This document shows, piece after piece, positions 11,945-23,611 of a stretch of 64,000 bases of DNA (positions are counted from its first letter, which is position 1; every line of letters begins with the position of its first letter). Location of the stretch: IMG/VR virus record IMGVR_UViG_3300032315_001715, positions 388,800 to 452,799 of that record. The stretch is one strand, 5' to 3'. The notes beneath the pieces are model-generated. The model was not told the DNA's origin and ran no database searches. It saw nothing but the letters and a program-made list of their open reading frames with translations. Source of the stretch: a virus. Both the position numbers and the translations under genes were made by a program.

Positions 11945-12114
11945 TGGTGCCGGATGAGGGATTTGAACCCCCGACCTTCGGTTTTTCTTGGACTTGCGGG
12001 CTTTAGGCCTTCTGTCCTTCATGGACGTACACAGAAGTAAATTCTCTGCACGGCTCCTGAGATGTTACCCATCACGGAAACAAAACCGCTGCACTACCAC
12101 TGTGCTAACCCGGC
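11945..12114 (-). tRNA. tRNA-Thr (anticodon TGT) interrupted by a 95-nt insertion
   Basis: Acceptor GCCGGGT/ATCCGGC, A73, CCA, good D-arm and canonical T-arm. The anticodon arm is split: 5' part GCGGT-TTTGT, 3' part AA-ACCGA, with 11985-12079 between them. Removal restores a 7-nt loop TTTGTAA (Thr). The insertion ends CCAAGAA, like the insertions in the Asn and Lys genes. Without RNA data, splicing is unproven; a Ser reading is disfavoured by the short variable loop. Confidence 0.65.
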
Positions 12115-12120
12115 ATATCC

Positions 12121-12196
12121 TGGTGGAGCATGTCGGATCTGCCCCGACGGCCTCTGCCATGCCATGACAGCGCTCTCCTAACTGAGCCAATGCCCC
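12121..12196 (-). tRNA. tRNA-Ala (anticodon GGC)
   Basis: Acceptor GGGGCAT/ATGCTCC, A73, CCA, anticodon loop ATGGCAT. T-stem GTCGG/CCGAC closes the non-canonical loop GGCAGAT (G54, C56, G58). Confidence 0.85.
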
Positions 12197-12219
12197 AAGA
12201 AACAATTATTGCAGGCTAC

Positions 12220-12804
12220 TTATCTCCTGTCAACCACAAATGGGTTGAATATGTCGATTGCTTGGTCCCACTGGACCAATTCGTTGGTGCTGCGGTGCTT
12301 GAGGACCAAGCTCATGCACCATCGTCCCTCGTCTGTATCATTAACGATGTTGTGTGGACCTCCAACGTTGACCAAGCTTGGCTGGCCGATGTTGGCCGAC
12401 CATGCCATGTCGCAATCAGCCGGATCCCAGCGGTAGTATTCCGTTCCTATCCGTGTCTTGGCCGTGGTGTATCCTAGACCACCTTTGTTATCATTGTACC
12501 AACACATGCGACTGCTGGCAGCACCGTAGGCCCAGTTCAGCTTGACATGCTCGTCAAGCCTGGAACCATCGGCATGTATGGCGGTTGACCATCTAGGCGC
12601 TGTGTAAAAGATCTCTGCATGATGAACCATGATACCACGCAGTGCAAGCCATCCGTGTATGCGAGGATCAATCTTCTCGACCGGTAGATTCCATATCGTG
12701 GATTTTTGTGGTAGTCCGAACGATTTGATGCCATCCATGGCGTACGTCGTTGCGGTAAATCCGATGCCGATGATCCGTTCATATCTGTTTTTTATCATCG
12801 GCAT
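12220..12804 (-). CDS. 2OG-Fe(II) oxygenase-like protein
   Basis: A 194-residue protein with the jelly-roll iron site IHADG (76-80), KLNWAYGAASSRMCWY, and SLVNVGGPHNIVN followed by RWCMSL, where the second His and the Arg bind iron and 2-oxoglutarate. It is a paralogue of the gene at 14930-15502, which shares the (H)xDG, NW(A/I)YGAxxSRM(C/V)W, NVGxPHxVxN and RWCxS blocks. The family is common in T4-like phages of aquatic bacteria; substrates are mostly unknown. It lies between tRNA-Ala(GGC) and tRNA-Ala(TGC). Confidence 0.75.
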   Translation of the reverse strand: MPMIKNRYERIIGIGFTATTYAMDGIKSFGLPQKSTIWNLPVEKIDPRIHGWLALRGIMVHHAEIFYTAPRWSTAIHADGSRLDEHVKLNWAYGAASSRMCWYNDNKGGLGYTTAKTRIGTEYYRWDPADCDMAWSANIGQPSLVNVGGPHNIVNDTDEGRWCMSLVLKHRSTNELVQWDQAIDIFNPFVVDRR

Positions 12805-12818
12805 CGGACATTTAAATT

Positions 12819-12894
12819 TGGTGGAGCCTATCGGGATCGAACCGATGACCTGAAGCTTGCAAAGCTACTGCTCTCCCATCTGAGCTAAGACCCC
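12819..12894 (-). tRNA. tRNA-Ala (anticodon TGC), canonical copy
   Basis: Acceptor GGGGTCT/AGGCTCC (one G-U and wobble positions), A73, CCA, anticodon loop TTTGCAA, T-loop TTCGATC. A GTTAAATA box ends 9 nt upstream. A second Ala(TGC) with an odd T-loop is at 25314. Confidence 0.88.
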
Positions 12895-12986
12895 ATTTGC
12901 TTTTATTTAACTTCGCTAGAAGTGTCTGTCAACCCCCTCCTGCGTGATTTCGTCCGGTAATCTGGCAATATTATTGAATCGACAGA

Positions 12987-13616
12987 TTATCTAGAGTCGG
13001 TAACCGTGTAGTTATTAATCAACAAATGCATTCTGGGTTTATCGCCGTCGTTTTTAAACGTATGGGCTATGCGATTAGCTTCAACCTTCCAAACGCGCCC
13101 GTCGGCAGGCATGTGCAGCTTGGTTTTGTTGCCATTGTGATCAAATACCCAATGGCAATCCGGATTGGTAAAAACAGCCACATGGTATCGTTCGGCCACA
13201 TGCAGATCCTTGTGCATGGGATATTGACGACGCGAACCTAACCAGGTTAGCTGGCATCTTCCAACAAACGGCTGCCGTAATCCGAACGTGGAAACATCAG
13301 TTAACACCTGTCCTAGATAGAGATCCTTGATCTCGTCGAGCATTTCGGTAAAATCAATCTCCTTGATACCGTGTTCACGTAATTCCGAGTGGCTTTTTTG
13401 CCATAGATGCCATCTATCTGACCCCTGCAATCCTGGTATATGGGTAAGATTGATGGAGTATCCAAACCATCGTTCAACACTGCAAACATGATTGATCCAA
13501 TCAAGGGATATGTCCAATCGATCAAGCAGGGTCATCACGCTATCGCACAATCTCTGATGGTCGACGACGTAATCAATCGGATAACAAAAGTTTGGTATTG
13601 AGGTGACGGTTTGCAT
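12987..13616 (-). CDS. Aspartyl/asparaginyl hydroxylase-like 2OG oxygenase
   Basis: A 209-residue protein. The C-terminal half has YPMHKDLHVAERYHVAVF (H-x-D iron site), a Trp/Phe-rich strand, MPADGRVWKVEANRIAHTFKN (distal His) and KPRMHLLIN (2OG-binding Arg). The N-terminal half (LDWINHVCSVERWFGYS) has no motif I know. It is related to the 10205 gene only at the level of the fold. AGGAGA lies 4 nt before the start region. The substrate is unknown. Confidence 0.7.
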   Translation of the reverse strand: MQTVTSIPNFCYPIDYVVDHQRLCDSVMTLLDRLDISLDWINHVCSVERWFGYSINLTHIPGLQGSDRWHLWQKSHSELREHGIKEIDFTEMLDEIKDLYLGQVLTDVSTFGLRQPFVGRCQLTWLGSRRQYPMHKDLHVAERYHVAVFTNPDCHWVFDHNGNKTKLHMPADGRVWKVEANRIAHTFKNDGDKPRMHLLINNYTVTDSR

Positions 13617-13634
13617 GCATGATTCTCCTAAAAA

Positions 13635-13724
13635 TGGCGGAACGGGTGGGATTCGAACCCACGGTACCTGTTAGGGTACGCACAGTTAGCAACCGTGTGC
13701 CTTCAGCCTCTCGGCCACCGTTCC
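13635..13724 (-). tRNA. tRNA-Ser (anticodon GCT), canonical copy
   Basis: Class II: acceptor GGAACGG/CCGTTCC, G73, CCA, anticodon stem CACGG/CTGTG with loop TTGCTAA, long variable arm, T-loop TTCGAAT. A TTAAATA box lies about 8 nt upstream. Confidence 0.93.
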
Positions 13725-13735
13725 GTATCACTTAT

Positions 13736-14356
13736 TTAATAAAGATCCTTGATCTTTTCAAGAATCGATTTCATCTCAACAACGTCGCTGTGCTTGGTGA
13801 TGCTCACGGCATTGTCCATGTGTCGGTGCATCTTGGCTCGACGCTCGTCCATGATCAAATCAAACAGCGCATTGTTGAGGTTAAATCGGTCATCAAGCAT
13901 GCGGATGATCCGTCCGTTTGGCAATAGTATGTCCCGCACGCTTTCAACGTAGCGATAAGCTGATTCAGCGTCCATGCCATGTTGTACCATGATGCCGATG
14001 GCAGCAGCGGTGCTGCGGCTGAGACCTTGATGGCAATGCACCAACAACCGATCGCCAGCTTGCAGGTTCTTGGAAAAATCAAGAATGGCATCAAGGTGTT
14101 GTTCATTTGGCAGCACCCACTCGTCCCTCAATTGGCTTTCAACATCATGGAGATGAATGACTAGATGGTTCTCGCAGGTAAACGGCAAGTTTACACCCGG
14201 ATCCACCATGCTGATGGTGTGCGTGGGCCAGCCATTGTGGGCCCACCTGCCCGCTTCGAATATACCGCCAATCTTTAATTCAAACATGCACGCCCCCGGT
14301 GAAATGATGCAGGGTATTACCAGCGTTAAGTCTGCGAGCTGGAGGAGTTTGACCAA
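13736..14356 (-). CDS. Dual-specificity-type protein phosphatase, copy 1
   Basis: A 206-residue protein with the CX5R signature LLVHCHQGLSRSTAA (Cys about 110, Arg about 116), an Asp-rich loop FSKNLQAGD before it and an AYRYVESVRDILLPN segment, all typical of tyrosine/dual-specificity phosphatases. Translation can start at TTG 14356, preceded by GGAGG at 4 nt, or at ATG 14287, which lacks a good ribosome site; I prefer TTG. A second phosphatase of similar design is at 18684-19184. Both lie between tRNA genes. The substrate could be a host phosphoprotein or an RNA or nucleotide phosphate; this is open. Confidence 0.8.
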   Translation of the reverse strand: MVKLLQLADLTLVIPCIISPGACMFELKIGGIFEAGRWAHNGWPTHTISMVDPGVNLPFTCENHLVIHLHDVESQLRDEWVLPNEQHLDAILDFSKNLQAGDRLLVHCHQGLSRSTAAAIGIMVQHGMDAESAYRYVESVRDILLPNGRIIRMLDDRFNLNNALFDLIMDERRAKMHRHMDNAVSITKHSDVVEMKSILEKIKDLY

Positions 14357-14377
14357 TGCACCTCCAAAGGTTCCTCG

Positions 14378-14563
14378 TTAGGCCTGGACGACCTTGAGCT
14401 GGTATCCACATGCAACCAGCCAGATGTTGAGATTTTCCATGACCTCTTCCGGGCTGCGGTTTTCCCAGTTCATGCTCACGCATCTAATATCCTCGCTGGA
14501 ACTGCGTTCCCGTGCGTTGTAGCTTACGTTCCAGCTTTCGTTTACTTGCTTGTTCTTGGCCAT
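14378..14563 (-). CDS. Small conserved-looking protein, unknown function
   Basis: A 61-residue protein starting at ATG 14563, with AAGGA 6 nt upstream; the longer frame overlaps a tRNA and is rejected. It is mostly polar at the N-terminus (MAKNKQVNESWNVSYNARER), ending ENLNIWLVACGYQLKVVQA. No membrane segment and no motif I recognise. It lies 21 nt upstream of the phosphatase and is probably cotranscribed with it. Confidence 0.6.
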   Translation of the reverse strand: MAKNKQVNESWNVSYNARERSSSEDIRCVSMNWENRSPEEVMENLNIWLVACGYQLKVVQA

Positions 14564-14589
14564 GTGTTTTCCTTGTTTTTTTTGAAAAT

Positions 14590-14707
14590 TGGCTCCTTCT
14601 GCTGGACTCGAACCAGCAACCACCTGATTAATCTTGGACCTGATGGAGTTGCACCATCCAATCTATTGATCCCACAGTCAGGGGCTCTACCATTGAGCTA
14701 AGAAGGA
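14590..14707 (-). tRNA. tRNA-Asn (anticodon GTT) interrupted by a 43-nt insertion
   Basis: Without 14631-14673 this is a perfect tRNA-Asn: acceptor TCCTTCT/AGAAGGA, G73, CCA, D-arm GCTC/GAGC, anticodon CCTGA-CTGTTAA-TCAGG, T-arm GCTGG-TTCGAGT-CCAGC. The insertion falls between anticodon bases 35 and 36, contains a T-arm-like hairpin (GATGG-TGCAACT-CCATC) and ends CCAAGAT. GGATC near its start pairs with GGTCC near its end. Confidence 0.8.
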
Positions 14708-14714
14708 ATAAAAC

Positions 14715-14791
14715 TGGAGTTGTGGGAGGCGCTCGCATCCTCGAATACCTGTTTTGCAGACAGGGCCATTACTATCTCTGGTCACCACAAC
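14715..14791 (-). tRNA. tRNA-Cys (anticodon GCA), divergent copy
   Basis: Acceptor GTTGTGG/CCACAAC, T73, CCA, anticodon CCTGT-CTGCAAA-ACAGG. T-loop TGCGAGC with a weak stem; D-arm irregular. Paired with a canonical tRNA-Cys next to it. Confidence 0.75.
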
Positions 14792-14797
14792 ATAACT

Positions 14798-14871
14798 TGG
14801 AGTTCGGAGAGGGAATTGAACCCCCGTGGCGGGTTTTGCAGACCCGTGCCTAACCACTCGGCCACCCGAAC
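14798..14871 (-). tRNA. tRNA-Cys (anticodon GCA), canonical copy
   Basis: Acceptor GTTCGGG/TCCGAAC, T73, CCA, anticodon CGGGT-CTGCAAA-ACCCG, T-loop TTCAATT. Confidence 0.93.
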
Positions 14872-14929
14872 ATTTAACTGATTCTAACATGACATTTATA
14901 GTGGTCTTTTTCCCATAAAGCAACCAACA

Positions 14930-15502
14930 TCATGATTCCTTAATCCACGGACCGAGTCGATCAATGGCATCGGCCCATTGCAGGATCTTACCTGTGCGTA
15001 GATTTCGTATGGTATAGCTGAAACACCACCTTCTATGTGGTGTATGGTTGATCACGGTGTGAGGTCGTCCGACGTTTAGCAAGCTTGGGCTTGCTGGTTC
15101 CATATCAAGCACCTTGCGTATCTTGTGCGGCTCAAAAACTCGGCTAACCGTGCCGGCCGAGGTCACATGATCCACTCCGGTATAGCCTTCCTCAACTGGT
15201 TCGAACCACACCATTCGGCTGCCCGGCGCACCATATATCCAGTTTATCTTGCATCTGGTTGCGTTTGGACCATCTCGACCATCGGTATGGATACCAAGCG
15301 TCATGCCCGGAGGGGTATAAAACGCTTCGCTGTAGGCAACGTCAAGTTCTATGGTTCTCAACCAAGAAGAAACGATGTTGTCCCCGGAAAACGGTATTAT
15401 ACCACGTTTGGTACAATCCGTCCATTTTGACATGCACTGCGCGATTATCTCCGGATCGGGCGATATTGGTATCGCTAACGGTTGGTGATATATGTTTTCC
15501 AT
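14930..15502 (-). CDS. 2OG-Fe(II) oxygenase-like protein
   Basis: A 190-residue paralogue of the 12220-12804 protein. Iron site IHTDG (70-74), KINWIYGAPGSRMVW, then LLNVGRPHTVINHTPHRRWCFSYT with the distal His and the 2OG-binding Arg. It differs from its paralogue in the N-terminal 60 residues. It lies between a tRNA-Cys pair and tRNA-Arg(TCT). The ribosome site is weak (AATGGTAATGAAACGGC before ATG). The substrate is unknown. Confidence 0.72.
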   Translation of the reverse strand: MENIYHQPLAIPISPDPEIIAQCMSKWTDCTKRGIIPFSGDNIVSSWLRTIELDVAYSEAFYTPPGMTLGIHTDGRDGPNATRCKINWIYGAPGSRMVWFEPVEEGYTGVDHVTSAGTVSRVFEPHKIRKVLDMEPASPSLLNVGRPHTVINHTPHRRWCFSYTIRNLRTGKILQWADAIDRLGPWIKES

Positions 15503-15537
15503 GCCGTTTCATTACCATTGATGTGATTTAATGTGTT

Positions 15538-15614
15538 TGGCGGACCCGGAGGGATTCGAACCCCCATCGAAGAGCTTAGAAGGCTCTTGCCTTATCCTGT
15601 TAGACCACGGATCC
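15538..15614 (-). tRNA. tRNA-Arg (anticodon TCT)
   Basis: Acceptor GGATCCG/CGGGTCC, G73, CCA, anticodon AGAGC-CTTCTAA-GCTCT, T-loop TTCGAAT. Confidence 0.95.
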
Positions 15615-15620
15615 AAATTT

Positions 15621-15696
15621 TGGAGCGGCGTGCGGGATTCGAACCCGCGTCATCAGCTTGGAAGGCTGGGGTAATTGGCCTTTATACGAACGCCGC
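15621..15696 (-). tRNA. tRNA-Gly (anticodon TCC)
   Basis: Acceptor GCGGCGT/ACGCCGC, T73, CCA, anticodon loop CTTCCAA, T-loop TTCGAAT. A perfect TATAAATA box ends 8 nt before the 5' end. Confidence 0.93.
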
Positions 15697-15704
15697 CTAT
15701 GAAG

Positions 15705-15712
15705 TATTTATA
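15705..15712 (-). promoter_or_regulatory. Consensus late promoter box before a tRNA
   Basis: TATAAATA, minus strand, 8 nt before tRNA-Gly(TCC). Transcription should begin almost at the tRNA 5' end. Confidence 0.65.
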
Positions 15713-15826
15713 CGCTATCTTACAGCGTCTGTCAAGCACTTCCATGATCCTTCGTGCCAGTTCCACCCACCTTCGAGCATTGCTACCCGGGACGTGCATC
15801 CCATGGGATAAACACCTTGGATTCCA

Positions 15827-15902
15827 TGGCCGTCCCGGAGGGACTCGAACCCCCAACCTTCGCGTTCGAAGCGCGCTGCTCTATCCATTGAGCTACGGAA
15901 CG
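15827..15902 (-). tRNA. tRNA-Arg (anticodon TCG), copy 1
   Basis: Acceptor CGTTCCG/CGGGACG, G73, CCA, anticodon loop CTTCGAA, T-loop TTCGAGT. A second Arg(TCG) gene is at 23923. Confidence 0.92.
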
Positions 15903-16397
15903 TTATCTGAAATACTGATACCTGTCCTCGAGGTTTGACCGGTCCTTGATCAATCCATCGAACTGGCCCTGACCATTTGGATAAAAACCGCTTGGATCAA
16001 GTATCTTGCCTCGGTTCTCTACCCAAGCATGTGGTATCCACCTCAGCTGATCCTCCATGTTTTCAGATCTAGCATACTTTGCACGATCCGTTTCCTTTCT
16101 TGGATTGAAGCCGTGCTGCTTCATCGCTGCCAGCTCCTCCTTAGTAAAGGCATCCAAGTCCAGATCCGGCACATCGGTCCGAAACCACCCCTTGGCCTTC
16201 TTGCCACCTCGCATGTGTCCAGCTGGTATGACCTCGGCGGTGACGATACCCCGGCTTTCTAAAAATTCTAGGAAATCAGACGCGGCACCGCCGCATCCGC
16301 CCCTGGTGGCATAGATGCTTAATCTCTTGTCTCCAGCGGTCTCCCAAAATTCCAGCAGCAACGGGTCAAAGCCTTGGGCTATTTCAATGAGTCTCAT
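15903..16397 (-). CDS. Unknown protein, possible papain-like or transglutaminase-like fold
   Basis: About 164 residues from ATG 16397; the longer frame runs through a tRNA and is rejected. Three spaced elements could make a Cys-His-Asp triad: RGGCGGAAS, WIPHAWVEN and ILDPSGFYP. This order is seen in papain-like and transglutaminase-like enzymes, but I cannot name a family, and the assignment is inference. A GATAAATA box is only 5 nt before the ATG with no ribosome site, so a leaderless mRNA is likely. The stop codon touches the 5' end of tRNA-Arg(TCG). Confidence 0.5.
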   Translation of the reverse strand: MRLIEIAQGFDPLLLEFWETAGDKRLSIYATRGGCGGAASDFLEFLESRGIVTAEVIPAGHMRGGKKAKGWFRTDVPDLDLDAFTKEELAAMKQHGFNPRKETDRAKYARSENMEDQLRWIPHAWVENRGKILDPSGFYPNGQGQFDGLIKDRSNLEDRYQYFR

Positions 16398-16402
16398 GCC
16401 GA

Positions 16403-16410
16403 TATTTATC
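16403..16410 (-). promoter_or_regulatory. Late promoter box 5 nt before a start codon
   Basis: GATAAATA, minus strand, inside a GCCGATA...TATCGGC palindrome directly before the ATG at 16397. Confidence 0.55.
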
Positions 16411-16422
16411 GGCAATGGAGCA

Positions 16423-16516
16423 TGGCGGAGAGCAGTGGTCTTGATCCACATGCCGGTTTCTAGCCGGCACCCACTCCTTAGCAGGGAGGGACGAACACTC
16501 GTTCGCTTTACTCTCC
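16423..16516 (-). tRNA. tRNA-Ser (anticodon GCT), divergent copy
   Basis: Acceptor GGAGAGT/GCTCTCC, G73, CCA, anticodon CTCC-CTGCTAA-GGAG, long variable arm, T-loop ATCAAGA. The T-arm resembles tRNA-Ser(GGA) at 5310. Confidence 0.85.
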
Positions 16517-16521
16517 AAAAT

Positions 16522-16597
16522 TGGCTGCCCACCCTCGGTTCGAACGAGGAACCTCCTGTTTCAGAGACAGGCGATCTGCCAGTTGATCTAGTGGGCA
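16522..16597 (-). tRNA. tRNA-Gln (anticodon CTG)
   Basis: Acceptor TGCCCAC/GTGGGCA, G73, CCA, anticodon CCTGT-CTCTGAA-ACAGG, T-loop TTCGAAC. An AATAAATA box ends 6 nt upstream. Confidence 0.95.
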
Positions 16598-16603
16598 ATA
16601 AAT

Positions 16604-16611
16604 TATTTATT
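16604..16611 (-). promoter_or_regulatory. Late promoter box before tRNA-Gln
   Basis: AATAAATA, minus strand, overlapping the stop of the endonuclease gene and 6 nt before tRNA-Gln(CTG). Confidence 0.5.
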
Positions 16612-17179
16612 TTTCGATAAAATACAGAGCTGTTTGAATGAATTGCTCTTTATCTTTGACACATTCTTTCCATTCTATTCGAAGTGTTTGCCATCCTTGC
16701 TCTAAAAGCCATGCATCTCGTTTTGCATCACTCTCTCTGGTGTTTTCGTGAGTGCCGCCGTCGATTTCAATGCATTTCTTTATTTCTGGCCAAGCAAAAT
16801 CAAGTGAATAAATTCCAAATGGGTATTCCGCAATGTAGTTTTTATTCTCAAATCTTTTATCAATCACAGATTCGAACCACTGCTCTGGATAACTTTTTGG
16901 ACGCCCTTTGAAATTTTTTCCCAAAGTAGGGTATGTCCCCTCCTTCAAACGTCTCAGCATGTGATGTCTGAGCTTGATTTTGGTTTCATCTGAGTGCTTC
17001 TGAGGAGGTCGATGTTTCCTGCTCATCTTTTGAGCTTCGCTTTTAGAACGAGGTGTGAACAATCCATTTTTGATTGCCTTGTTGATCGTGTTCAAGGTTG
17101 GTCCTAATTCTCGCATTGGGACCCCACTATCATATAGGCTCTGTAATTCTTTCCAATTAAACGGAGTTTTGTTTCTCAT
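16607..17179 (-). CDS. Homing endonuclease (DUF559/Vsr-like, with NUMOD-type region)
   Basis: A 190-residue protein. The C-terminal 90 residues have IYSLDFAWPEIKKCIEIDGG, then RDAWLLEQGWQTLRIEW, the D-x-E-x-D pattern and helix of DUF559/very-short-patch-repair-like nucleases. The middle has a basic DNA-binding stretch (SDETKIKLRHHMLRRLKEG). The gene sits in the tRNA array and is preceded by a 5' half-tRNA. A CATAAATA box is 4 nt before the ATG, so the gene carries its own leaderless-type late promoter. Mobile endonuclease is the best reading; its target was not identified. Confidence 0.8.
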   Translation of the reverse strand: MRNKTPFNWKELQSLYDSGVPMRELGPTLNTINKAIKNGLFTPRSKSEAQKMSRKHRPPQKHSDETKIKLRHHMLRRLKEGTYPTLGKNFKGRPKSYPEQWFESVIDKRFENKNYIAEYPFGIYSLDFAWPEIKKCIEIDGGTHENTRESDAKRDAWLLEQGWQTLRIEWKECVKDKEQFIQTALYFIEK

Positions 17180-17183
17180 GACT

Positions 17184-17191
17184 TATTTATG
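17184..17191 (-). promoter_or_regulatory. Late promoter box 4 nt before a start codon
   Basis: CATAAATA, minus strand, within a 7-bp inverted repeat, 4 nt before ATG 17179 of the endonuclease. Confidence 0.55.
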
Positions 17192-17225
17192 ATAAGTCGG
17201 TTGTTCTACCATTAAACTAATCCCC
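17191..17225 (-). pseudogene. 5' half of a tRNA gene
   Basis: GGGGATT, a normal D-arm (AGTT/GAAC) and ACCGA-CTTATCA up to the anticodon loop (TAT, Ile, if read normally). The sequence then becomes the promoter of the homing endonuclease; no 3' half follows. Likely the product of endonuclease insertion. Confidence 0.6.
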
Positions 17226-17233
17226 AAAATTAT

Positions 17234-17309
17234 TGGCTGCCCGTGATGGTTTCGAACCACCAACATCGAGATTCAAAGTCTCGCGTTCTGCCAATTGAAC
17301 TAACGGGCA
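17234..17309 (-). tRNA. tRNA-Gln (anticodon TTG)
   Basis: Acceptor TGCCCGT/ACGGGCA, G73, CCA, anticodon CGAGA-CTTTGAA-TCTCG, T-loop TTCGAAA. Confidence 0.95.
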
Positions 17310-17319
17310 ATAAACTCTT

Positions 17320-17396
17320 TGGTGTTCTCGACGGGATTCGAACCCATGACCTTCGGCTTAGGAGGCAGACGCTCTATCCAGCTGAGCTACGAGAAC
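17320..17396 (-). tRNA. tRNA-Arg (anticodon CCT)
   Basis: Acceptor GTTCTCG/CGAGAAC, A73, CCA, anticodon loop CTCCTAA, T-loop TTCGAAT. Confidence 0.93.
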
Positions 17397-17401
17397 AAGA
17401 T

Positions 17402-17476
17402 TGGTTGGACCGGTCAGGATCGAACTGACACTCTATCGGTTATCAACCGATTGCTTTACCATTAAGCTACGGTCCA
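17402..17476 (-). tRNA. tRNA-Ile (anticodon GAT), copy 1
   Basis: Acceptor TGGACCG/CGGTCCA, A73, CCA, anticodon ATCGG-TTGATAA-CCGAT, T-loop TTCGATC. A TATAAATA box ends 11 nt upstream. Confidence 0.93.
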
Positions 17477-17487
17477 ACAGCTAGTGA

Positions 17488-17495
17488 TATTTATA
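17488..17495 (-). promoter_or_regulatory. Consensus late promoter box before a tRNA
   Basis: TATAAATA, minus strand, 11 nt before tRNA-Ile(GAT). Confidence 0.6.
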
Positions 17496-17529
17496 GTCTA
17501 TCGCCGGCAAAAAAGCAAGCGATGATTTT

Positions 17530-17614
17530 TGGTGCCCAGGGCGAGATTTGAACCCGCATGACCTTGCGGCCGCCACCTTCTGAGGATGGAGTGTATGCAT
17601 TCCACCACCTGGGC
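17530..17614 (-). tRNA. tRNA-Leu (anticodon CAG), class II
   Basis: Acceptor GCCCAGG/CCTGGGC, A73, CCA, anticodon CCATC-CTCAGAA-GGTGG, long variable arm, T-loop TTCAAAT. The only Leu tRNA here with the normal bacterial class II body. Confidence 0.93.
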
Positions 17615-17744
17615 AATATCATGGGTCTTACGGTGCCAGGACACCCGCCCTTGTTATGGTTGCCGGATTCTGTTCCCGGGGCCGGCACCCCGGATCGTTC
17701 CCATGGCTTCTACTAAGCAGTCACTCCATGGGAACATCAATATT
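17615..17744 (-). other. Structured non-coding stretch between tRNAs
   Basis: Holds a perfect 10-bp inverted repeat (GTTCCCATGG with CCATGGGAAC) around a 19-nt loop that resembles a D-arm, and a TGCCGG/CCGGCA hairpin. I could not complete a cloverleaf; perhaps a decayed or rearranged tRNA. Confidence 0.4.
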
Positions 17745-17821
17745 TGGTGCATCCGGTGGGATTCGAACCCACACTGTATGATCTCTCAAACCATTGACTC
17801 TACCAGTTGGCCTACGGATGC
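17745..17821 (-). tRNA. tRNA with Leu anticodon (GAG) on a class I body
   Basis: Acceptor GCATCCG/CGGATGC, A73, CCA, anticodon ATGGT-TTGAGAG-ATCAT, T-loop TTCGAAT. The variable loop is about 5 nt, unlike normal bacterial tRNA-Leu, so the amino acid charged is uncertain. Confidence 0.75.
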
Positions 17822-17826
17822 AAAAT

Positions 17827-17901
17827 TGGTAGGTGAGGAGAATTTTGAAATCCCGTCCCTCGGTATGTAACACCGATGCTCTGCCTCTGAGCTACTCACC
17901 C
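17827..17901 (-). tRNA. tRNA-Val (anticodon TAC), divergent copy
   Basis: Acceptor GGGTGAG/CTCACCT, A73, CCA, anticodon TCGGT-GTTACAT-ACCGA, T-loop TTCAAAA with a weak T-stem. Confidence 0.8.
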
Positions 17902-17906
17902 ATGTT

Positions 17907-17982
17907 TGGTACCAACCGTGGGGATTGAACCCACCTAGATCTGCTTGTAAAGCAGACGCCCTCCCCAGATGGCTCGGTTGGC
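17907..17982 (-). tRNA. tRNA-Val (anticodon TAC), canonical copy a
   Basis: Acceptor GCCAACC/GGTTGGT, A73, CCA, anticodon TCTGC-TTTACAA-GCAGA, T-loop TTCAATC. Differs by one base within the gene from 18435-18510. Confidence 0.93.
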
Positions 17983-18011
17983 ATACAACTGATATCATGA
18001 TAGACGGGCTA

Positions 18012-18275
18012 TTAAGCCTCGCTTACTGCATCCGGGAATGGTGGATTTCCGCCGCTGCCAACTCCCGTGACTGACACGAAGCCGGTATATCCCGATAGTC
18101 CTGGTAGCTCCAGCACGCCGGTTGGTGCAGGCACTGCTGCATCGCCAACGCGCACGATGACGGTCATTTCAGAGTCATCCTTGCTGATAATCGCACGCGG
18201 AACGACGATCCATGATGATCCGTCAAATCCTAGGACGGTGTCACCGTCTAGTCTGTAATCTCCTGTATTTGCCAT
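18012..18275 (-). CDS. Small protein of unknown function
   Basis: About 87 residues starting at ATG 18275, where AAAGGAG sits 8 nt upstream; an upstream in-frame ATG at 18302 overlaps that ribosome site and is less likely. The sequence is rich in beta-type residues (SWIVVPRAII, TVIVRVGDAAVPAPTG) and ends in a Gly-Pro tail. It may be a small virion or decoration protein, but nothing in it proves this. A CATAAATA box at 18318-18325 gives it its own late promoter, which favours a structural role. Confidence 0.55.
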   Translation of the reverse strand: MANTGDYRLDGDTVLGFDGSSWIVVPRAIISKDDSEMTVIVRVGDAAVPAPTGVLELPGLSGYTGFVSVTGVGSGGNPPFPDAVSEA

Positions 18276-18317
18276 TTTCTTGGCTCCTTTCTCTTGATCC
18301 ATGTTGGATTCAATGCA

Positions 18318-18325
18318 TATTTATG
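18318..18325 (-). promoter_or_regulatory. Late promoter box
   Basis: CATAAATA, minus strand, about 42 nt before ATG 18275. Confidence 0.5.
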
Positions 18326-18354
18326 TTCTAACATGGACAAAAAGCAATAAATGA

Positions 18355-18430
18355 TGGTACCTACTGTGGGGATCGAACCCACCTCTAACAGCGTGTCGAG
18401 CTGTCGCCATCCCCAGATGACAAAGCAGGC
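18355..18430 (-). tRNA. tRNA-Val (anticodon GAC) with C33
   Basis: Acceptor GCCTGCT/AGTAGGT, A73, CCA, anticodon ACAGC-TCGACAC-GCTGT. Position 33 is C in place of the near-invariant U. T-loop TTCGATC. Confidence 0.85.
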
Positions 18431-18434
18431 ATAT

Positions 18435-18510
18435 TGGTACCAACCGTGGGGATTGAACCCACCTAGATCTGCTTGTAAAACAGACGCCCTCCCCAGATGG
18501 CTCGGTTGGC
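18435..18510 (-). tRNA. tRNA-Val (anticodon TAC), canonical copy b
   Basis: Near-identical duplicate of 17907-17982 with one change in the anticodon stem (T-G pair). Confidence 0.93.
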
Positions 18511-18519
18511 ATGTAAAAC

Positions 18520-18596
18520 TGGTGCCCGTGGAGGGATTCGAACCCCCAACATCCTGGTTCTAAACCAGGCGCCTCTTCCAGTTGCGCTACACGGGC
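18520..18596 (-). tRNA. tRNA with Leu anticodon (TAG) on a class I body
   Basis: Acceptor GCCCGTG/CACGGGC, A73, CCA, anticodon CCTGG-TTTAGAA-CCAGG, short variable loop, T-loop TTCGAAT. Same class mismatch as the GAG gene at 17745. Confidence 0.8.
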
Positions 18597-18602
18597 AAAA
18601 CT

Positions 18603-18676
18603 TGGCGACCATACGGGGAATCGAACTCCGGCGACCTGCTAGACAGGCAAGCGTTCTACCATTAAACTATATGGCC
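18603..18676 (-). tRNA. tRNA-Asp (anticodon GTC), copy 1
   Basis: Acceptor GGCCATA/TATGGTC, G73, CCA, anticodon loop CTGTCTA, T-loop TTCGATT. Confidence 0.92.
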
Positions 18677-18683
18677 ATAAAAT

Positions 18684-19184
18684 TCAAGGATTGTTGAGTT
18701 TCCACCAACGATTAATGGAATCAGCACCAATCTCATCACACACCTCAACAAGCTTGCCGCCGAGGCCAAGGATATCATCAAAGTGTTGGGCTAACAGCAT
18801 GTTCGGGCATGCTCGCGGACGATCCGCTTTTAGCCATTCCACACCTTCCTCAAGCCTATCAACACCGTTGGCCTGCAACCACAGCGCCAGCGCCGACGCC
18901 GTTGAGCGGCATGCACCAGCAAAGCAATGCACCACCACCCGGGCATCTCCGGGCAAACGCTGGCCAAACTCTAGGATCGATTCTGCGTGCTCTCTCGTCG
19001 GTGCATACAGCTTGGCAGGATCCTCTTCGTCATCAAAGTTGATGGCAAAGTGATTCTTGGCATCGATGCGTGGCGGACGGAATACCCGATCACCAACATC
19101 CAGCATGGTGATGAGATGCGTGGCAGCAAACCGCTTGGCGGTCTTTTTGACCTCGCTCTTTCCACAAACGGTAAACTCGGGCAC
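18684..19184 (-). CDS. Dual-specificity-type protein phosphatase, copy 2
   Basis: A 166-residue protein with the CX5R site VVVHCFAGACRSTAS (Cys about 86, Arg about 92). The start is GTG 19184, with AGGAGG 6 nt upstream, a strong ribosome site. Compared with copy 1 (13736-14356) the N-terminus is shorter (KRFAATHLITMLDVGDRVF), and the DRPRACPNMLLAQHFDDIL segment after the site matches the role of copy 1's DILLPNGRIIRMLDDRF. It lies between tRNA-Asp and tRNA-Glu. The substrate is unknown. Confidence 0.8.
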   Translation of the reverse strand: MPEFTVCGKSEVKKTAKRFAATHLITMLDVGDRVFRPPRIDAKNHFAINFDDEEDPAKLYAPTREHAESILEFGQRLPGDARVVVHCFAGACRSTASALALWLQANGVDRLEEGVEWLKADRPRACPNMLLAQHFDDILGLGGKLVEVCDEIGADSINRWWKLNNP

Positions 19185-19206
19185 GTTACACCTCCTTGTT
19201 AGAAAA

Positions 19207-19281
19207 TGGTCTCGCGTGCGGGTGCCGGCCCCGCTACTCCGGGATGAAAGCCCGGTGTTTTAGCTGGTAAACTAACGCGAG
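19207..19281 (-). tRNA. tRNA-Glu (anticodon TTC), copy 1, alternative T-loop
   Basis: Acceptor CTCGCGT/ACGCGAG, A73, CCA, anticodon CCGGG-CTTTCAT-CCCGG. T-stem GCGGG/CCCGC closes loop GCCGGCA (G54, C56, G58). Confidence 0.88.
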
Positions 19282-19425
19282 TTACGATTCCGCATGCGCT
19301 GGCCCCCCAATCCCGCCGCGCTGCACGACACCACCTGCCTTGCTTCTTTCGTCGCGTAACATGGCATCTTACCGGTCCATGACATGCTAACCTGTCCGCA
19401 GACAGGGAACCATGCACGGATGATT

Positions 19426-19510
19426 TGGCTCAACCGGCAGGCTTCGAACCTGCACGCCTTGCGGCGCCTGATTAACAGTCAGGTGGGTCTACCAGTTCCC
19501 CCACAGTTGA
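19426..19510 (-). tRNA. tRNA with Asn anticodon (GTT) on a Leu-like class II body
   Basis: Acceptor TCAACTG/CGGTTGA, G73, CCA, anticodon CCTGA-CTGTTAA-TCAGG, T-loop TTCGAAG. It has a long variable arm (GCGCC-GCAA-GGCGT) and a D-region GGGGGAACTGGTAGACC typical of tRNA-Leu. G73 fits Asn. About 140 nt upstream (19282-19425) hold only a CCTGTC/GACAGG hairpin. Confidence 0.82.
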
Positions 19511-19569
19511 ATAAAACCCAGTAGTTGTTGTTCTTGTTGCATGCTTTATAGCACGCACCGTATTTGGTG

Positions 19570-20238
19570 TCAACGCCTATTTTTTATCGTTCTTCCTTTG
19601 ATCCATCCGACTGGTATAGGATCAGATTTTTTAATTTTTACAGATTTTTGACCATCTGTTATCCACATTGTGTCAAACTGACTATTGGATTTGCCAAATC
19701 CTCGCCCTTTTGATGATTCGGACATTTTAGATCTAGTTTCAGCCGAATGTGTCTTTCCTTTGAAAGATGCAAATATGTCAGGCGTATATTTTGATTTAAT
19801 GGTTTCTTGCCATTTTTTTGAACGATTTGCAACTCTTTCTGTATCTAATAGAAAAAGTCTTAGACCCTCCTTGGCTTTTTCTTCTATCCCTCTAGATTTT
19901 GCTACTTTCATAGCCTTTTGATTTTTTTCTTTTCTTAACGATTCATTTGAATTGATATAACCAAATCCGCCATGTCCTCCTGGACATAAATTATATGTAT
20001 CTGGTCTTGCACACATTTCTTCTGTCACAAGTTCTTTTTCTTTGTCGTTCATTTCTTTTTCACAAGAAAAGACGTGTAAGATTTCTTTGGAAAAATTTTC
20101 AATACCATATTTGTCAATTGCAAGTTTTATGAGCTTGCCAGATCCAAAATATTCATCATTAAGGTCAGCAGTTTTATGCTTTCCTATATAAATCTTGCTG
20201 TTAAGGAGATTAGTAATTTTGTATATTATGAAGAACAT
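19570..20238 (-). CDS. GIY-YIG homing endonuclease
   Basis: About 222 residues from ATG 20238 (a GTG at 20244 is also in frame). N-terminal GIY-YIG core: FIIYKITNLLNSKIYIGKH, with Arg replaced by Lys after YIG, a Glu-containing NFSKEIL and LCPGGHGGFG. The C-terminal half has NUMOD3-like modules (KSKYTPDIFASFKGKTHSAE; SSKGRGFGKSNS). It lies in the tRNA array with its own CATAAATA box at 20257-20264 and a G-rich ribosome site. It is a free-standing mobile endonuclease. Confidence 0.88.
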   Translation of the reverse strand: MFFIIYKITNLLNSKIYIGKHKTADLNDEYFGSGKLIKLAIDKYGIENFSKEILHVFSCEKEMNDKEKELVTEEMCARPDTYNLCPGGHGGFGYINSNESLRKEKNQKAMKVAKSRGIEEKAKEGLRLFLLDTERVANRSKKWQETIKSKYTPDIFASFKGKTHSAETRSKMSESSKGRGFGKSNSQFDTMWITDGQKSVKIKKSDPIPVGWIKGRTIKNRR

Positions 20239-20256
20239 AAACACCCCCGTTTGGAG

Positions 20257-20264
20257 TATTTATG
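20257..20264 (-). promoter_or_regulatory. Late promoter box
   Basis: CATAAATA, minus strand, 18 nt before the GIY-YIG start. It follows the T-run after tRNA-Gly(GCC). Confidence 0.5.
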
Positions 20265-20272
20265 AAAAAATG

Positions 20273-20343
20273 AGCGGGTAGCGAGAATCGAACTCGCGCG
20301 TCCACCATGGCAAGGTGGCAGGCTACCTCTACATCATACCCGC
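20273..20343 (-). tRNA. tRNA-Gly (anticodon GCC), no encoded CCA
   Basis: Acceptor GCGGGTA/TACCCGC, anticodon CCACC-TTGCCAT-GGTGG, T-loop TTCGATT. The 3' end reads TCA then six T, so CCA must be added after transcription. Confidence 0.93.
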
Positions 20344-20581
20344 ATTATATGGTTAGTTATCCATGCAAGGCGCGTCTAATCCAGTTCTGTCCAAGAGGAC
20401 GACCTTCATGTGGGGTCGCGTCGTTCAATGCACCTTGCCTTGGTGCACCTTGCAAGATTGAAATCCCGTGTTCTACGATACTCGGCTGTAGGTGACTAGC
20501 CCACTATATCCTGGACGGTTGAGTCCAGGCCACCGAATGCTACCATGTCACGGGGTCTTTGGTGGGGGTAAGTCCCAGATT
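20344..20581 (-). ncRNA. Candidate structured RNA of about 235 nt
   Basis: No reading frame. On the minus strand it has a perfect CCTGGAC-TCAACC-GTCCAGG hairpin, CCACC/GGTGG, and a long-range pairing CCCGTG with CACGGG that crosses them, so a pseudoknotted fold is possible. It contains tRNA-like pieces but no closed cloverleaf. I cannot name a family. Confidence 0.4.
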
Positions 20582-21169
20582 CTATATCAACCCTAAACTT
20601 TTGAGCTTGGTTTTATCCCATACCTCGCAGACGACATCTGGATATAACTGGCGCCAAAGCTCGAACTTTTCTTTGTTTGCTTTTCGCCAATAACCCTTGA
20701 CCTCTATGATTTTTCCGCAGGATAAAACAAAGTCAGGTCTGTATGACCTATTTTTTGATAACAGGAAAACCTTCTTGCTGTAATCCCATTTGATACCTTG
20801 GCTATCGAGGTAAGACGCAACTTTCACCTCCCAGGATGAATCCATCCTGATGCCATTATAATAACTTTGTCTATCTCCTCTATGTTTGGCGTTATTGTTA
20901 CCTCTCATAGATTCGGATATTTTAGCTTTGGTGTCATCGGTATGTTTCACCAACGAATTGAGCTTTCTGCCTTTTATCTTTAAGGCATGCCCTAGAATCC
21001 TTGAATCTGTTTCCTTGCTAAGTCCTTTGTTCCAGCTAACATGCGCTGTCTTGAGACGTGCTCGATAACCGGGACATTTGTAATAAACTGGTTGGCAGCA
21101 CCACCCGCTCCATTTAGAGCGAGGTGGATACGAAGCGGTGTCTCCGCAATACTTGCATGTGTTGTTCAT
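20582..21169 (-). CDS. Homing endonuclease (NUMOD3 plus PD-(D/E)XK-like nuclease)
   Basis: About 195 residues from ATG 21169; a CATAAATA box lies 5 nt upstream, which rules against the longer frame to 21199. The N-terminus has a zinc-ribbon-like CKYCGDTASY...CCQP. The middle has NUMOD3-type KISESMRGNNNAKHRG. The C-terminus has SYRPDFVLSCGKIIEVKGYW, a PD-(D/E)XK catalytic motif. It sits beside tRNA-Lys(CTT) and belongs to the same mobile class as the genes at 16607 and 21653. Confidence 0.8.
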   Translation of the reverse strand: MNNTCKYCGDTASYPPRSKWSGWCCQPVYYKCPGYRARLKTAHVSWNKGLSKETDSRILGHALKIKGRKLNSLVKHTDDTKAKISESMRGNNNAKHRGDRQSYYNGIRMDSSWEVKVASYLDSQGIKWDYSKKVFLLSKNRSYRPDFVLSCGKIIEVKGYWRKANKEKFELWRQLYPDVVCEVWDKTKLKSLGLI

Positions 21170-21174
21170 GAAAG

Positions 21175-21182
21175 TATTTATG
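21175..21182 (-). promoter_or_regulatory. Late promoter box 5 nt before a start codon
   Basis: CATAAATA, minus strand, 5 nt before ATG 21169. Confidence 0.55.
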
Positions 21183-21227
21183 CAAACAGTCTGCTCCAAC
21201 CCTCCAACGTTGGCGCTTCCCCAAATT

Positions 21228-21306
21228 TGGTAGACCAGGTGGGACTCGAACCCACGGTTTTTACTGATTAAGAATCAGCTGCCTTGGCCGCTCGGCGCAC
21301 TGGTCT
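21228..21306 (-). tRNA. tRNA-Lys (anticodon CTT), canonical copy
   Basis: Acceptor AGACCAG/CTGGTCT, A73, CCA, anticodon GCTGA-TTCTTAA-TCAGT, T-loop TTCGAGT. The variable loop is slightly long (AAAAACC). Confidence 0.9.
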
Positions 21307-21315
21307 GTGGTATAA

Positions 21316-21426
21316 TGGCCTTAGAACACTCCGCCGGTGCTGCCCTAACCCTTGTTTGCGCTCAAGTCCCCGGTCTACGGCTGCATCTCAACCAGGGAGG
21401 GCTATCTGCTCTCGTCGTGCTCTAAC
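21316..21426 (-). tRNA. tRNA-like element with extended middle, anticodon unclear
   Basis: CCA with G73, acceptor GTTAGAG/TTCTAAG (6 of 7 paired), a CAC-CGGCGGA-GTG T-like hairpin, and about 45 extra nt around the expected anticodon arm. Could be another interrupted tRNA or a decayed one. Confidence 0.35.
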
Positions 21427-21427
21427 T

Positions 21428-21502
21428 TGGTCTCGCGTGCGGGTGCCGGCCCCGCTACTCCGGGATGAAAGCCCAGTATTTTAGCTGGTAAACTAACGCG
21501 AG
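21428..21502 (-). tRNA. tRNA-Glu (anticodon TTC), copy 2, alternative T-loop
   Basis: Near-identical to 19207-19281: same acceptor, CTTTCAT anticodon loop and GCCGGCA T-loop. Confidence 0.88.
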
Positions 21503-21518
21503 AAATCTCATTCTAACT

Positions 21519-21598
21519 TGGAGGACCACCAGGGAATCGAACCCTGCTTGTTGCTGCTTCCGCGGTGGGTTTTAGCGCAACAAGAGCCATCGTGGCCC
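21519..21598 (-). tRNA. tRNA-like element without a normal anticodon arm
   Basis: Acceptor GGGCCAC/GTGGTCC, T73, CCA and a canonical T-arm (CAGGG-TTCGATT-CCCTG). The rest is an 8-bp stem CTTGTTGC/GCAACAAG with a 22-nt interior; no D-arm or U33-containing loop can be drawn. Confidence 0.5.
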
Positions 21599-21608
21599 GT
21601 AAATTTGG

Positions 21609-21616
21609 TATAAATA
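21609..21616 (+). promoter_or_regulatory. Consensus late promoter box, plus strand
   Basis: TATAAATA 36 nt before the ATG at 21653. The only plus-strand promoter box I see within the tRNA array. Confidence 0.6.
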
Positions 21617-21652
21617 GATTAAATAGTTTTTTAAGCAACAGGAGAATGTCGC

Positions 21653-22282
21653 ATGTCTTATGAAATTTTCATTAAAAGTCAGTCATACACTCGACAATCA
21701 CCTAATCTTTCTAAGCTTGGGTTTGATTTTGTAAACCATGATAGCAAAGCTGAATATCAAAAAATTCAGAACCTTCTTAGCACTGAATATTTAATTCTTG
21801 GCGAAAGTATGATAACCTTGCAAGAAAAATACAGCATCCCAAGTTCACGGACCTTACATGATTTGTTCAAACTATTTGATATTGAAGCACGATCATTTAG
21901 TAATGCTAATAGGTTAGCATTGACAACGGAGCGATCCACAATGCCGTGTTGTTACAAATACAAGACAGGATGGCATACAACTTGGGATCAAAAACAAGTC
22001 TTCTTGCGAAGTTCGTATGAATTTGATTATGCGAAAATTCTCGATGAGTCAAAAATACCGTATGAGGTGGAAGCACTTCGAATCAAATACTATTCCTCAA
22101 CCGAGGAGAAATATCGTATAGCTATACCCGATTTTTTACTACCTTGCAGTCATACCATAGTTGAGATCAAATCTCAATTTACCTACGATAGTCAACAAAT
22201 GAAAGACAAGTTCTGTGCATATCAAGCACTCGGATATAAAGCGATTTTGATTCTAGAGGGCAAAGAAACCTCTCTAGAATGA
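21653..22282 (+). CDS. PD-(D/E)XK-type homing endonuclease, opposite strand
   Basis: A 209-residue protein, the only gene on the plus strand in this region. ATG 21653 has AGGAGA upstream and a TATAAATA box at 21609-21616. The C-terminal half reads YEVEALRIKYYSSTEEKYR, then AIPDFLLPCSHTIVEIKSQF, a PD-x(n)-(D/E)-x-K nuclease core; the N-terminal half is likely DNA-binding (ITLQEKYSIPSSRTLHDLFK looks helix-turn-helix-like). Its AT-rich composition differs from the neighbours, fitting recent transfer. The 3' end abuts the interrupted tRNA-Lys. Confidence 0.75.
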   Translation: MSYEIFIKSQSYTRQSPNLSKLGFDFVNHDSKAEYQKIQNLLSTEYLILGESMITLQEKYSIPSSRTLHDLFKLFDIEARSFSNANRLALTTERSTMPCCYKYKTGWHTTWDQKQVFLRSSYEFDYAKILDESKIPYEVEALRIKYYSSTEEKYRIAIPDFLLPCSHTIVEIKSQFTYDSQQMKDKFCAYQALGYKAILILEGKETSLE

Positions 22283-22285
22283 AGT

Positions 22286-22419
22286 TGGAGGACCCCGGTG
22301 GTAACGATCCACTTGCGGGCGGGTTAATCTTGGCATAGAGGACTTGCACCTCATGTGACCTGGTTGTCATCTGCCTAAAGTCCGCTGCCGGCACCTGCCT
22401 GGCTATACGCTCGGGGTCC
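22286..22419 (-). tRNA. tRNA-Lys (anticodon TTT) interrupted by a 50-nt insertion
   Basis: Acceptor GGACCCC/GGGGTCC, T73, CCA. The anticodon arm GCGGA-CTTT | TAA-CCCGC is split by 22327-22376. The insertion has a T-arm-like hairpin GAGG-TGCAAGT-CCTC and ends CCAAGAT; GGCA near its start pairs with TGCC before CCAAGAT. T-loop ATCGTTA, D-region irregular. Confidence 0.6.
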
Positions 22420-22472
22420 TTGTTATCTATTGTTTAATGGGATTTCCTTGGTAATGCAAGGAAAAACTTGGA

Positions 22473-22547
22473 GGACCGTGTGGGAATCAAACCTTCCCGG
22501 CCGGATTAAGAGCCCAGCTGAGCCTCAGGCTGCAATGGTCCATCTAA
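22473..22547 (-). tRNA. tRNA-Lys (anticodon CTT), divergent copy
   Basis: Acceptor GGACCAT/ACGGTCC (one mismatch), T73, CCA, anticodon CTGGG-CTCTTAA-TCCGG, T-loop TTTGATT with a weak stem. A diverged relative of 21228-21306. Confidence 0.6.
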
Positions 22548-22638
22548 CTCTCGGAAGAGCCGCACGCTCTCCATTCCCGTGTCGCCCAGGGACCCTTATC
22601 GGACCCTTCTGGTGCGGTTAGGCAACGCGGGGTATTCT

Positions 22639-22715
22639 TGGTAGCCCCACCGGGATTTGAACCCGGATTTCCCGCTTGAGAGGCGAGTGTTCTAGACCGC
22701 TTAAACTATGGGGCC
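22639..22715 (-). tRNA. tRNA-Glu (anticodon CTC)
   Basis: Acceptor GGCCCCA/TGGGGCT, A73, CCA, anticodon CTCGC-CTCTCAA-GCGGG, T-loop TTCAAAT. Confidence 0.93.
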
Positions 22716-22763
22716 GTATGGTTGGTTCACAAACTACCGTGCTTGTGAATGTGTTTGATCTGT

Positions 22764-23351: not shown

Positions 23352-23356
23352 GATGC

Positions 23357-23364
23357 TATTTATT
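23357..23364 (-). promoter_or_regulatory. Late promoter box 5 nt before a start codon
   Basis: AATAAATA, minus strand, 5 nt before ATG 23351; it begins right at the CCA of tRNA-Pro(GGG). Confidence 0.55.
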
Positions 23365-23438
23365 GGTCAGCGTGGGGAATTTTGCGATCCCGGCCTCCAG
23401 GCTCCCGACCTGGCACTCTTCTCCTGAGCTACACGCTG
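23364..23438 (-). tRNA. tRNA-Pro (anticodon GGG) with C33
   Basis: Acceptor CAGCGTG/CACGCTG, A73, CCA, anticodon CCAGG-TCGGGAG-CCTGG with C33. T-loop CGCAAAA. Confidence 0.85.
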
Positions 23439-23445
23439 TTGTAAA

Positions 23446-23520
23446 TGGTCAGGGAGGGGAATTTCGAAATCCCGGCTTCCAGGTTCCAGGCCTGGCACTC
23501 TGCCTCTGAGCTACTCCCTG
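23446..23520 (-). tRNA. tRNA-Pro (anticodon TGG) with C33
   Basis: Acceptor CAGGGAG/CTCCCTG, A73, CCA, anticodon CCAGG-CCTGGAA-CCTGG with C33. T-loop TTCGAAA. Confidence 0.88.
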
Positions 23521-23530
23521 ATGTTGTTAG

Positions 23531-23604: not shown

Positions 23605-23611
23605 ATAAACT

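Follow-up and report, generated by a model that had tools for sequence, protein, structure and literature searches.

We analyzed a stretch of giant-phage DNA 64,000 nucleotides (nt) long, here called the window, which is the final 64 kb of a 452,799-base virus record (IMG/VR record IMGVR_UViG_3300032315_001715), and in particular three tRNA genes in it that are interrupted by short inserts in the anticodon loop. The window holds a dense tRNA array on the minus strand, interleaved with endonuclease and other open reading frames (ORFs; 12819..25698), and the three genes lie on the same strand. The first, a tRNA-Thr(UGU) gene (11945..12114; exons 12114-12080 and 11984-11945), has a 95-nt insert at site 36/37 (11985..12079). 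The second, a tRNA-Asn(GUU) gene (14590..14707; exons 14707-14674 and 14630-14590), has a 43-nt, tRNA-like insert (14631..14673) at site 35/36 or, owing to a one-base ambiguity, 34/35. The third is a degenerate tRNA-Lys(UUU)-like gene (22286..22419; exons 22419-22377 and 22326-22286), and its 50-nt insert (22327..22376) is also tRNA-like.

The Rfam tRNA model (RF00005) matches the first two genes with their inserts in place, at 12114-11948 (Thr, 49.6 bits) and 14707-14593 (Asn, 56.5 bits). ARAGORN, with introns allowed, finds inserts of 93 nt (Thr) and 43 nt (Asn), and it misnames the Thr gene as Tyr and the Asn anticodon as att. With its 95-nt insert removed, the Thr gene matches the annotated tRNA-Thr(tgt) of Rhizobium phages at 91% over 100% of its length and is identical to it through the anticodon loop; the Asn gene without its 43-nt insert matches a Bacillus-phage tRNA-Asn at 83% over 100% of its length. 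Each spliced form aligns to intronless phage tRNAs as one contiguous piece. An earlier note on this DNA had placed anticodon-loop inserts of 95, 43 and 50 nt in the Thr, Asn and Lys genes and had stated that their removal restores a 7-nt loop; both statements are borne out, for Thr and Asn by the Rfam, ARAGORN and spliced-alignment results. The Lys host has a 7-bp acceptor stem and an encoded CCA, together with a non-standard T-loop and an anticodon stem in which 4/5 bp form; it gave no RF00005 match even at E≤10, and its spliced form gave no match among phage tRNAs. Another phage, L310, has an insert of the same design as in the window Lys gene at the identical site, and there the tRNA-Lys is sound.

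Structure of the inserts

The Asn insert, [G]-GGATC-...-GATGG-TGCAACT-CCATC-A-GGTCC-AAGAT, is a short acceptor-like helix stacked on a T-arm: GGATC (14672-14668) pairs with GGTCC (14640-14636), the T-arm occupies 14658-14642, a 5-nt tail (AAGAT) follows, and the register equals nt 1-76 of a tRNA. The Lys insert has the same plan, with GGCA (22375-22372) paired to TGCC (22335-22332), a middle hairpin (TGAC/GTCA), a T-arm (GAGG-TGCAAGT-CCTC, 22352-22338) and the tail AAGAT. The Thr insert opens with a leader-like hairpin (GATG-GGTAA-CATC) and has a GGAC...GTCC-AAGA helix at its 3' end; a T-arm was looked for in this insert and none was found. The pairings and T-arm-like hairpins in Asn and Lys, as well as the common insert ends CCAAGA(A/T), had been described in the earlier note, and all are present. 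When each insert was subjected to dinucleotide shuffling, the pairings and hairpins were rare: P = 0.008 (Asn) and P = 0.05 (Lys) for the end helix, P < 0.001 in both cases for the T-arm, and 0/20000 shuffles, for Asn and Lys alike, for a T-arm in the family register described below. By the family criterion of 13 or 16 nt between T-loop and exon and an acceptor helix that closes, the Asn and Lys inserts (distances of 16 nt and 15 nt, the latter as in the L310 Lys insert) fall within the family; the Thr insert does not show this spacing. The window Asn insert is a good family member and the Lys insert is a homologous insert in a decayed host; the Thr insert resembles the leader type, and its assignment is the least certain of the three.

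The earlier note had likened the junctions to a relaxed bulge-helix-bulge, and this likeness fails. Like the archaeal and eukaryal introns with that motif, the inserts are short and lie in or beside the anticodon, but here the helix lies within the intron, where it forms the acceptor stem of a tRNA-like unit, and the intron itself is tRNA-like. A 4-bp helix between two 3-nt bulges carrying the splice sites is absent; the intron-internal helix measures 4-7 bp, and its flanks in inserts of the window type are 5 nt (CTGT+N) and 8 nt (5+TAA). The canonical position is 37/38, but the inserts here lie at 34/35 or 35/36 and, in leader types and window Thr, at 36/37. To our knowledge, tRNA splicing that depends on proteins has been described in archaea and eukaryotes but not in bacteria or the viruses that infect them.

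Group I introns also interrupt tRNA anticodon loops, but they are much larger ribozymes with a conserved core, and Rfam detected no group I or group II core: the window matches tRNA families only. A conserved fold and a precise site might suggest very small self-splicing ribozymes. We regard this as extremely unlikely, because the window has no match to a ribozyme or intron model in Rfam, known group I and II introns are of far greater size, and inserts of 43-50 nt are acceptor/T-arm minihelices without a recognizable catalytic core.

A family of inserts in phage tRNA genes

We scanned viral sequences for an outer D-arm and an outer T-arm spaced too far apart, for an inner T-loop, and for the succession outer D-arm, CTK, TAA, outer T-arm, the last without selection on insert content. 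By our count, 50/55 viral stretches from this content-blind scan carry either a tRNA or a minihelix derived from one, with an acceptor helix and a T-arm, and all scans together yielded >50 contigs with such inserts. The scans detect only hosts with consensus D and T arms, and the true number is therefore larger. On this sequence evidence, the inserts are members of a so far undescribed family that is widespread in phages. The occurrence of the same inserts in other phages, which the earlier note had named as a test, is supported by these stretches; the window's own Lys host looks decayed. In bacterial and archaeal genomes the CTK...TAA pattern retrieved mostly tandem tRNAs or archaeal introns. 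Tandem tRNAs were also most of what a CTKT...AGATTAA pattern scan returned. Inserts resembling a tRNA within a tRNA were seen in a Planctomycetota (L332) and an Armatimonadetes (L331) metagenome-assembled genome, perhaps phage contigs in bacterial bins.

The members range from complete tRNAs to minihelices. Complete inner tRNAs are present in L094 (CTGT^GTAGATG...CATCTAC-TCCA^TAA, where ^ marks a junction; a tRNA-Gly with anticodon UCC within tRNA-Asn), L248 (CTT^GATGAAA...TTTCATC-TCCA^TTAA, host tRNA-Lys), L220 (CTT^GGGGACT...GGTCTCC-ACCA^TTAA, host tRNA-Lys) and L056 (host Thr), and all four have an encoded CCA and base-exact placement. The inserts of L218, L228, L236 and L237 stop at the discriminator base. 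Window Asn is one of the short type, which retains acceptor and T-arm; leaderless members in general measure 43-75 nt, occupy site 34/35 or 35/36 and mostly consist of these two elements only. A subgroup (L279, L295, L307, L310) retains a AAAGGTAA/AAAGGTCA stretch that we read as D-loop-like. The inserts of L299, L291 and L288 end GGTCC(A/G)AGAT^TAA, as in window Asn, with which L299 has the common end GGTCCAAGAT^TAA, and L310 carries both an Asn and a Lys insert resembling those of the window. L307 is the cultured Agrobacterium phage Atu_ph07 (host A. tumefaciens C58), whose clear member, in a tRNA-Asn near 323.94 kb with a predicted excised RNA of 46 nt, is unannotated in its record (MF403008); the proposed splicing is therefore directly testable.

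In 2019, tRNA introns were reported in Lak phages, including one that "may encode a tRNA" (Devoto et al., PMC6784885). The tRNA-encoding potential of the anticodon-loop insert in Lak tRNA-Thr(UGU), and the existence of alleles with and without it, were thereby already published; a search of the main text of that paper showed no class, mechanism or wide distribution for these introns. In the open-access papers searched we found no description beyond Lak phages; most subscription papers and preprints lay outside the search. Re-analysis of the Lak insert shows an inner 7-bp acceptor, a T-arm and a single 3' nt, followed by exon AA. As in Lak, the present inserts lie in the anticodon loops of phage tRNAs; a tRNA-like unit that ends at the 3' junction is found in window Asn and Lys, with acceptor helix and T-arm in register. 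The Lak inserts differ in lying at 36/37 behind a 5' leader hairpin, whereas window Asn and most new members are leaderless; neither Asn nor Lys has this hairpin and site, with which Thr is compatible. The leader type comprises Lak, L063, L421 and probably window Thr, which is similar in placement and layout to the inserts in Lak tRNA-Thr and L421; L249/L251 have a 6-nt leader. Two scans for inserts like that of window Thr found only L421 and an identical contig, and the 3'-end pattern GCAASTCC..CCAAGATTAA found no tRNA insert beyond an identical contig of the window's own phage. The family is a widespread, structurally defined extension of the Lak precedent, not the first phage tRNA intron. 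The new phage intron class put forward in the earlier note is partly supported: as such a class would predict, the inserts are precisely placed, non-random and recurrent, leave the outer tRNA intact and match no Rfam intron family, but phage tRNA introns are not wholly new, Lak having come first.

Register, covariation and alleles

As a measure of register, we counted the nucleotides between the inner T-loop and the 3' anticodon stem in 33 distinct inserts. The count is 16 nt in 10/33 and 19-20 nt in 20/33; subtraction of the 2-4 exon loop bases leaves ∼13 or 16 nt, which is how far nt 73 or nt 76 lies from the T-loop in a tRNA. For Lak and L063, which are of the leader type, two of the bases belong to the exon and 14 nt remain, with one extra base between T-stem and acceptor; other values are seen in L221 (34), L214 (17) and the Lys-type insert of L310 (18). 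Almost only such values occur as would be expected if each insert began at nt 1 of a mature tRNA and ended at nt 73 or nt 76.

Covariation was evaluated in 16 distinct insert-tRNAs. In this set the proposed structure has 95.5% of its cells paired, and its covariation score is 0.935, vs 0.239 in shuffles (0/500) and 0.05-0.21 for slid partners; these values are favored by the derivation of the structure from the same sequences. Changes on both sides occur at 12/14 pairs, which this derivation does not explain. For the outer anticodon stem, the two halves of which lie on either side of the insert, 98.8% of cells are paired and 4/5 pairs have changed on both sides, and the end helix of 13 leaderless inserts forms 83 contiguous pairs vs 42 ± 5 in permutations. 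The pair L273 and L276 illustrates this behavior: their inserts differ at one base, while the host anticodon stem reads TGCGG/CCGCA in one and TTCGG/CCGAA in the other, and pairing is kept there as well as in the host T-stem, which has also changed.

The Lak alleles A1 and C1 show the tRNA-containing insert precisely present or absent. In tRNA-Thr(UGU) it is present in A1 and absent from C1, with identical flanks; in tRNA-Gly(UCC) it is present in C1 and absent from A1, and two compensatory double changes distinguish the anticodon stems of the two alleles. Part of the compensatory pattern could be mimicked if the flanks were co-converted as an insert came in, though both sides match.

These data bear on a pseudogene origin, in which tRNA fragments were carried into tRNA genes by recombination or by the action of homing endonucleases and are now decaying. 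The endonuclease genes between the tRNAs of the window, the degenerate state of its Lys gene and of that gene's neighbors, and the lack of a clear T-arm in the Thr insert are what such a history would leave. Strong covariation of both the inner helix and the outer anticodon stem, however, indicates that the inserts are not random pseudogenes, and compensatory changes in outer stems across inserts, recurrence in >50 contigs and the exact register make this origin distinctly improbable.

The inserts might instead stay in, as the earlier note had allowed in speaking of blocked tRNAs, and yield stable tRNA-like RNAs or blocked tRNAs that act as decoys or shields against host anticodon nucleases. 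They do occupy the loop that such nucleases attack, and jumbo phages have many tRNA-repair genes (PMC7824862). We nevertheless consider retention quite unlikely: it is a poorer explanation of why the inserts keep an exact tRNA register and why the outer stems covary, and the outer tRNAs keep full cloverleaf pairing, align with intronless tRNAs in one contiguous piece and, once the insert is removed, have an exact 7-nt loop with a sensible anticodon.

Candidate mechanism and neighboring genes

How might such an insert leave its host tRNA? RNase P and RNase Z read the T-loop, the ∼12-bp stack and the acceptor end of tRNA precursors, and an inner unit with these three elements is predicted to have the features of a substrate for both. 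We lean toward the reading that the inserts are tRNA-derived introns, a tRNA within a tRNA, excised by tRNA end processing, and that a phage RNA ligase then joins the host halves. Before excision, the insert would fold as its own acceptor and T-arm unit, sometimes as a full cloverleaf, looped out of the host anticodon loop, where tRNA end-trimming enzymes would recognize and excise it, RNase P cutting its 5' end and RNase Z or an equivalent its 3' end. The cuts would leave a 3'-OH and a 5'-phosphate in the host anticodon loop, and a T4 Rnl1-type ligase would seal them to give the mature host tRNA; ligases of this type join such ends when repairing anticodon-loop breaks. The further proposal of a new intron class, in which a tRNA or minihelix nested in the anticodon loop is removed by universal end processing and phage ligation, is plausible but more tentative. 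Since the inserts equal mature tRNAs (nt 1 to 73 or 76) at anticodon-loop positions, we speculate that they arose when a mature tRNA was ligated into a cut anticodon loop during repair and was later copied into DNA.

The genome of this phage encodes candidate sealing enzymes. A T4 Rnl1 homologue is present as an N-half (206 aa, motif EKLDGS) and a C-half (201 aa) separated by a GIY-YIG endonuclease ORF on the opposite strand (L263 269-2118, near 264-266 kb of the genome); an intron was searched for in this split gene with Rfam and none was found. There are also an Rnl2-family ligase and, ∼5 kb from the split gene, a homologue of the T4 Pnkp phosphatase domain (L203, about 15843-16286). Rnl1 also occurs in the records of Atu_ph07, L310, L295 and L279; those of L310 and L295, like this genome, contain a short N-terminal Rnl1 frame (about 205 aa). 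T4 Pnkp and Rnl1 would likewise seal anticodon-loop breaks, but they are known for repairing tRNAs that host nucleases have cut and not for splicing, and the T4 tRNA cluster examined lists no insert-bearing tRNA. RtcB was considered as the sealing enzyme and rejected, being absent from this genome and 40 other records. Of the ligase and splicing nuclease that the earlier note had proposed to look for, the ligase is represented by the split Rnl1-like and the Rnl2-like genes, whereas the splicing endonuclease PF01974 was found in 0/24 insert-bearing records in a search of viral records, not host genes, in which four control archaea were positive.

A dedicated phage or host endonuclease could alternatively read the anticodon stem, the 5-nt/8-nt internal loop and the intron helix, with Pnkp healing and ligation to follow. 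The constant junction geometry of the short inserts and the Pnkp homologue and RNA ligases in the genome agree with such an enzyme, which would also handle leader types and non-CCA tails. We judge it unlikely, given the PF01974 result and RtcB in 0/41 records, and it leaves both the tRNA nature of the insert and the fixed T-loop-to-junction distance unexplained.

Several points weigh against excision by end processing and phage ligation. Most short inserts have AAGAT, AAAAG or AACCG in place of CCA (nt 74-76) and the short type is mismatched at 1-72, while the leader types have extra sequence before the inner tRNA; the tails, mismatch and leaders call for another nuclease or extra trimming, and RNase P alone cannot make the 5' splice site of the leader types. 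The phage's own Rnl1 gene is interrupted. RNA ligases are common among large phages, and their presence in 15/17 insert vs 9/17 comparison records is a weak difference that ignores relatedness. The window Lys host is a poor tRNA that looks decayed, and the case for excision, for the nucleases named and for ligation is built from comparative sequence evidence.

If tRNA-derived introns are indeed removed in this way, an intron that needs only tRNA end-trimming enzymes and an RNA ligase would be a simple, new route of RNA splicing, phage RNA ligases would gain a role beyond repair, and the "enigmatic" Lak introns would be explained. Full-length members would give two tRNAs per gene, such as the tRNA-Gly inside the tRNA-Asn of L094. 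For annotation, standard tRNA finders miss or misname insert-bearing phage tRNAs.

Two further insert types recur in viral tRNA genes. One, in the anticodon arm of tRNA-like genes, has a hairpin with a conserved (A)CAGCAA or similar sequence after it and no T-arm (L046, L072, L075, L077, L093, L097, L111, L118, L122, L126, L139, L146); the other, with the core ACTTT-CGCT..AGCA-AAAGT-TCCTA, lies in otherwise sound tRNA genes (L059, L086, L096, L108, L117, L142, L143, L145, L152, L282, L293). T4 RNA C and RNA D, considered as possible kin of other unusual tRNA-like genes, do not clearly resemble them.

Within the tRNA array, endonuclease genes of the DUF559 (16607-17179), SegE-type GIY-YIG (19570-20244) and Phage_endo_I type, the last with a NUMOD3 motif (20582-21199), lie between tRNAs, and two dual-specificity phosphatase-like proteins are encoded (13736-14356 and 18684-19184). 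A tRNA-Glu-like gene is present in two copies (19207-19281 and 21428-21502) that are 97% identical (73/75 bases) and that Rfam detects and ARAGORN misses. At 19426-19510, a tRNA with the Asn anticodon GUU has a Leu-like body with a long variable arm. Elsewhere in the genome of this phage, near 321 kb (L206 7752-7907), two adjoining tRNAs have a CTA anticodon and are possible amber suppressors.

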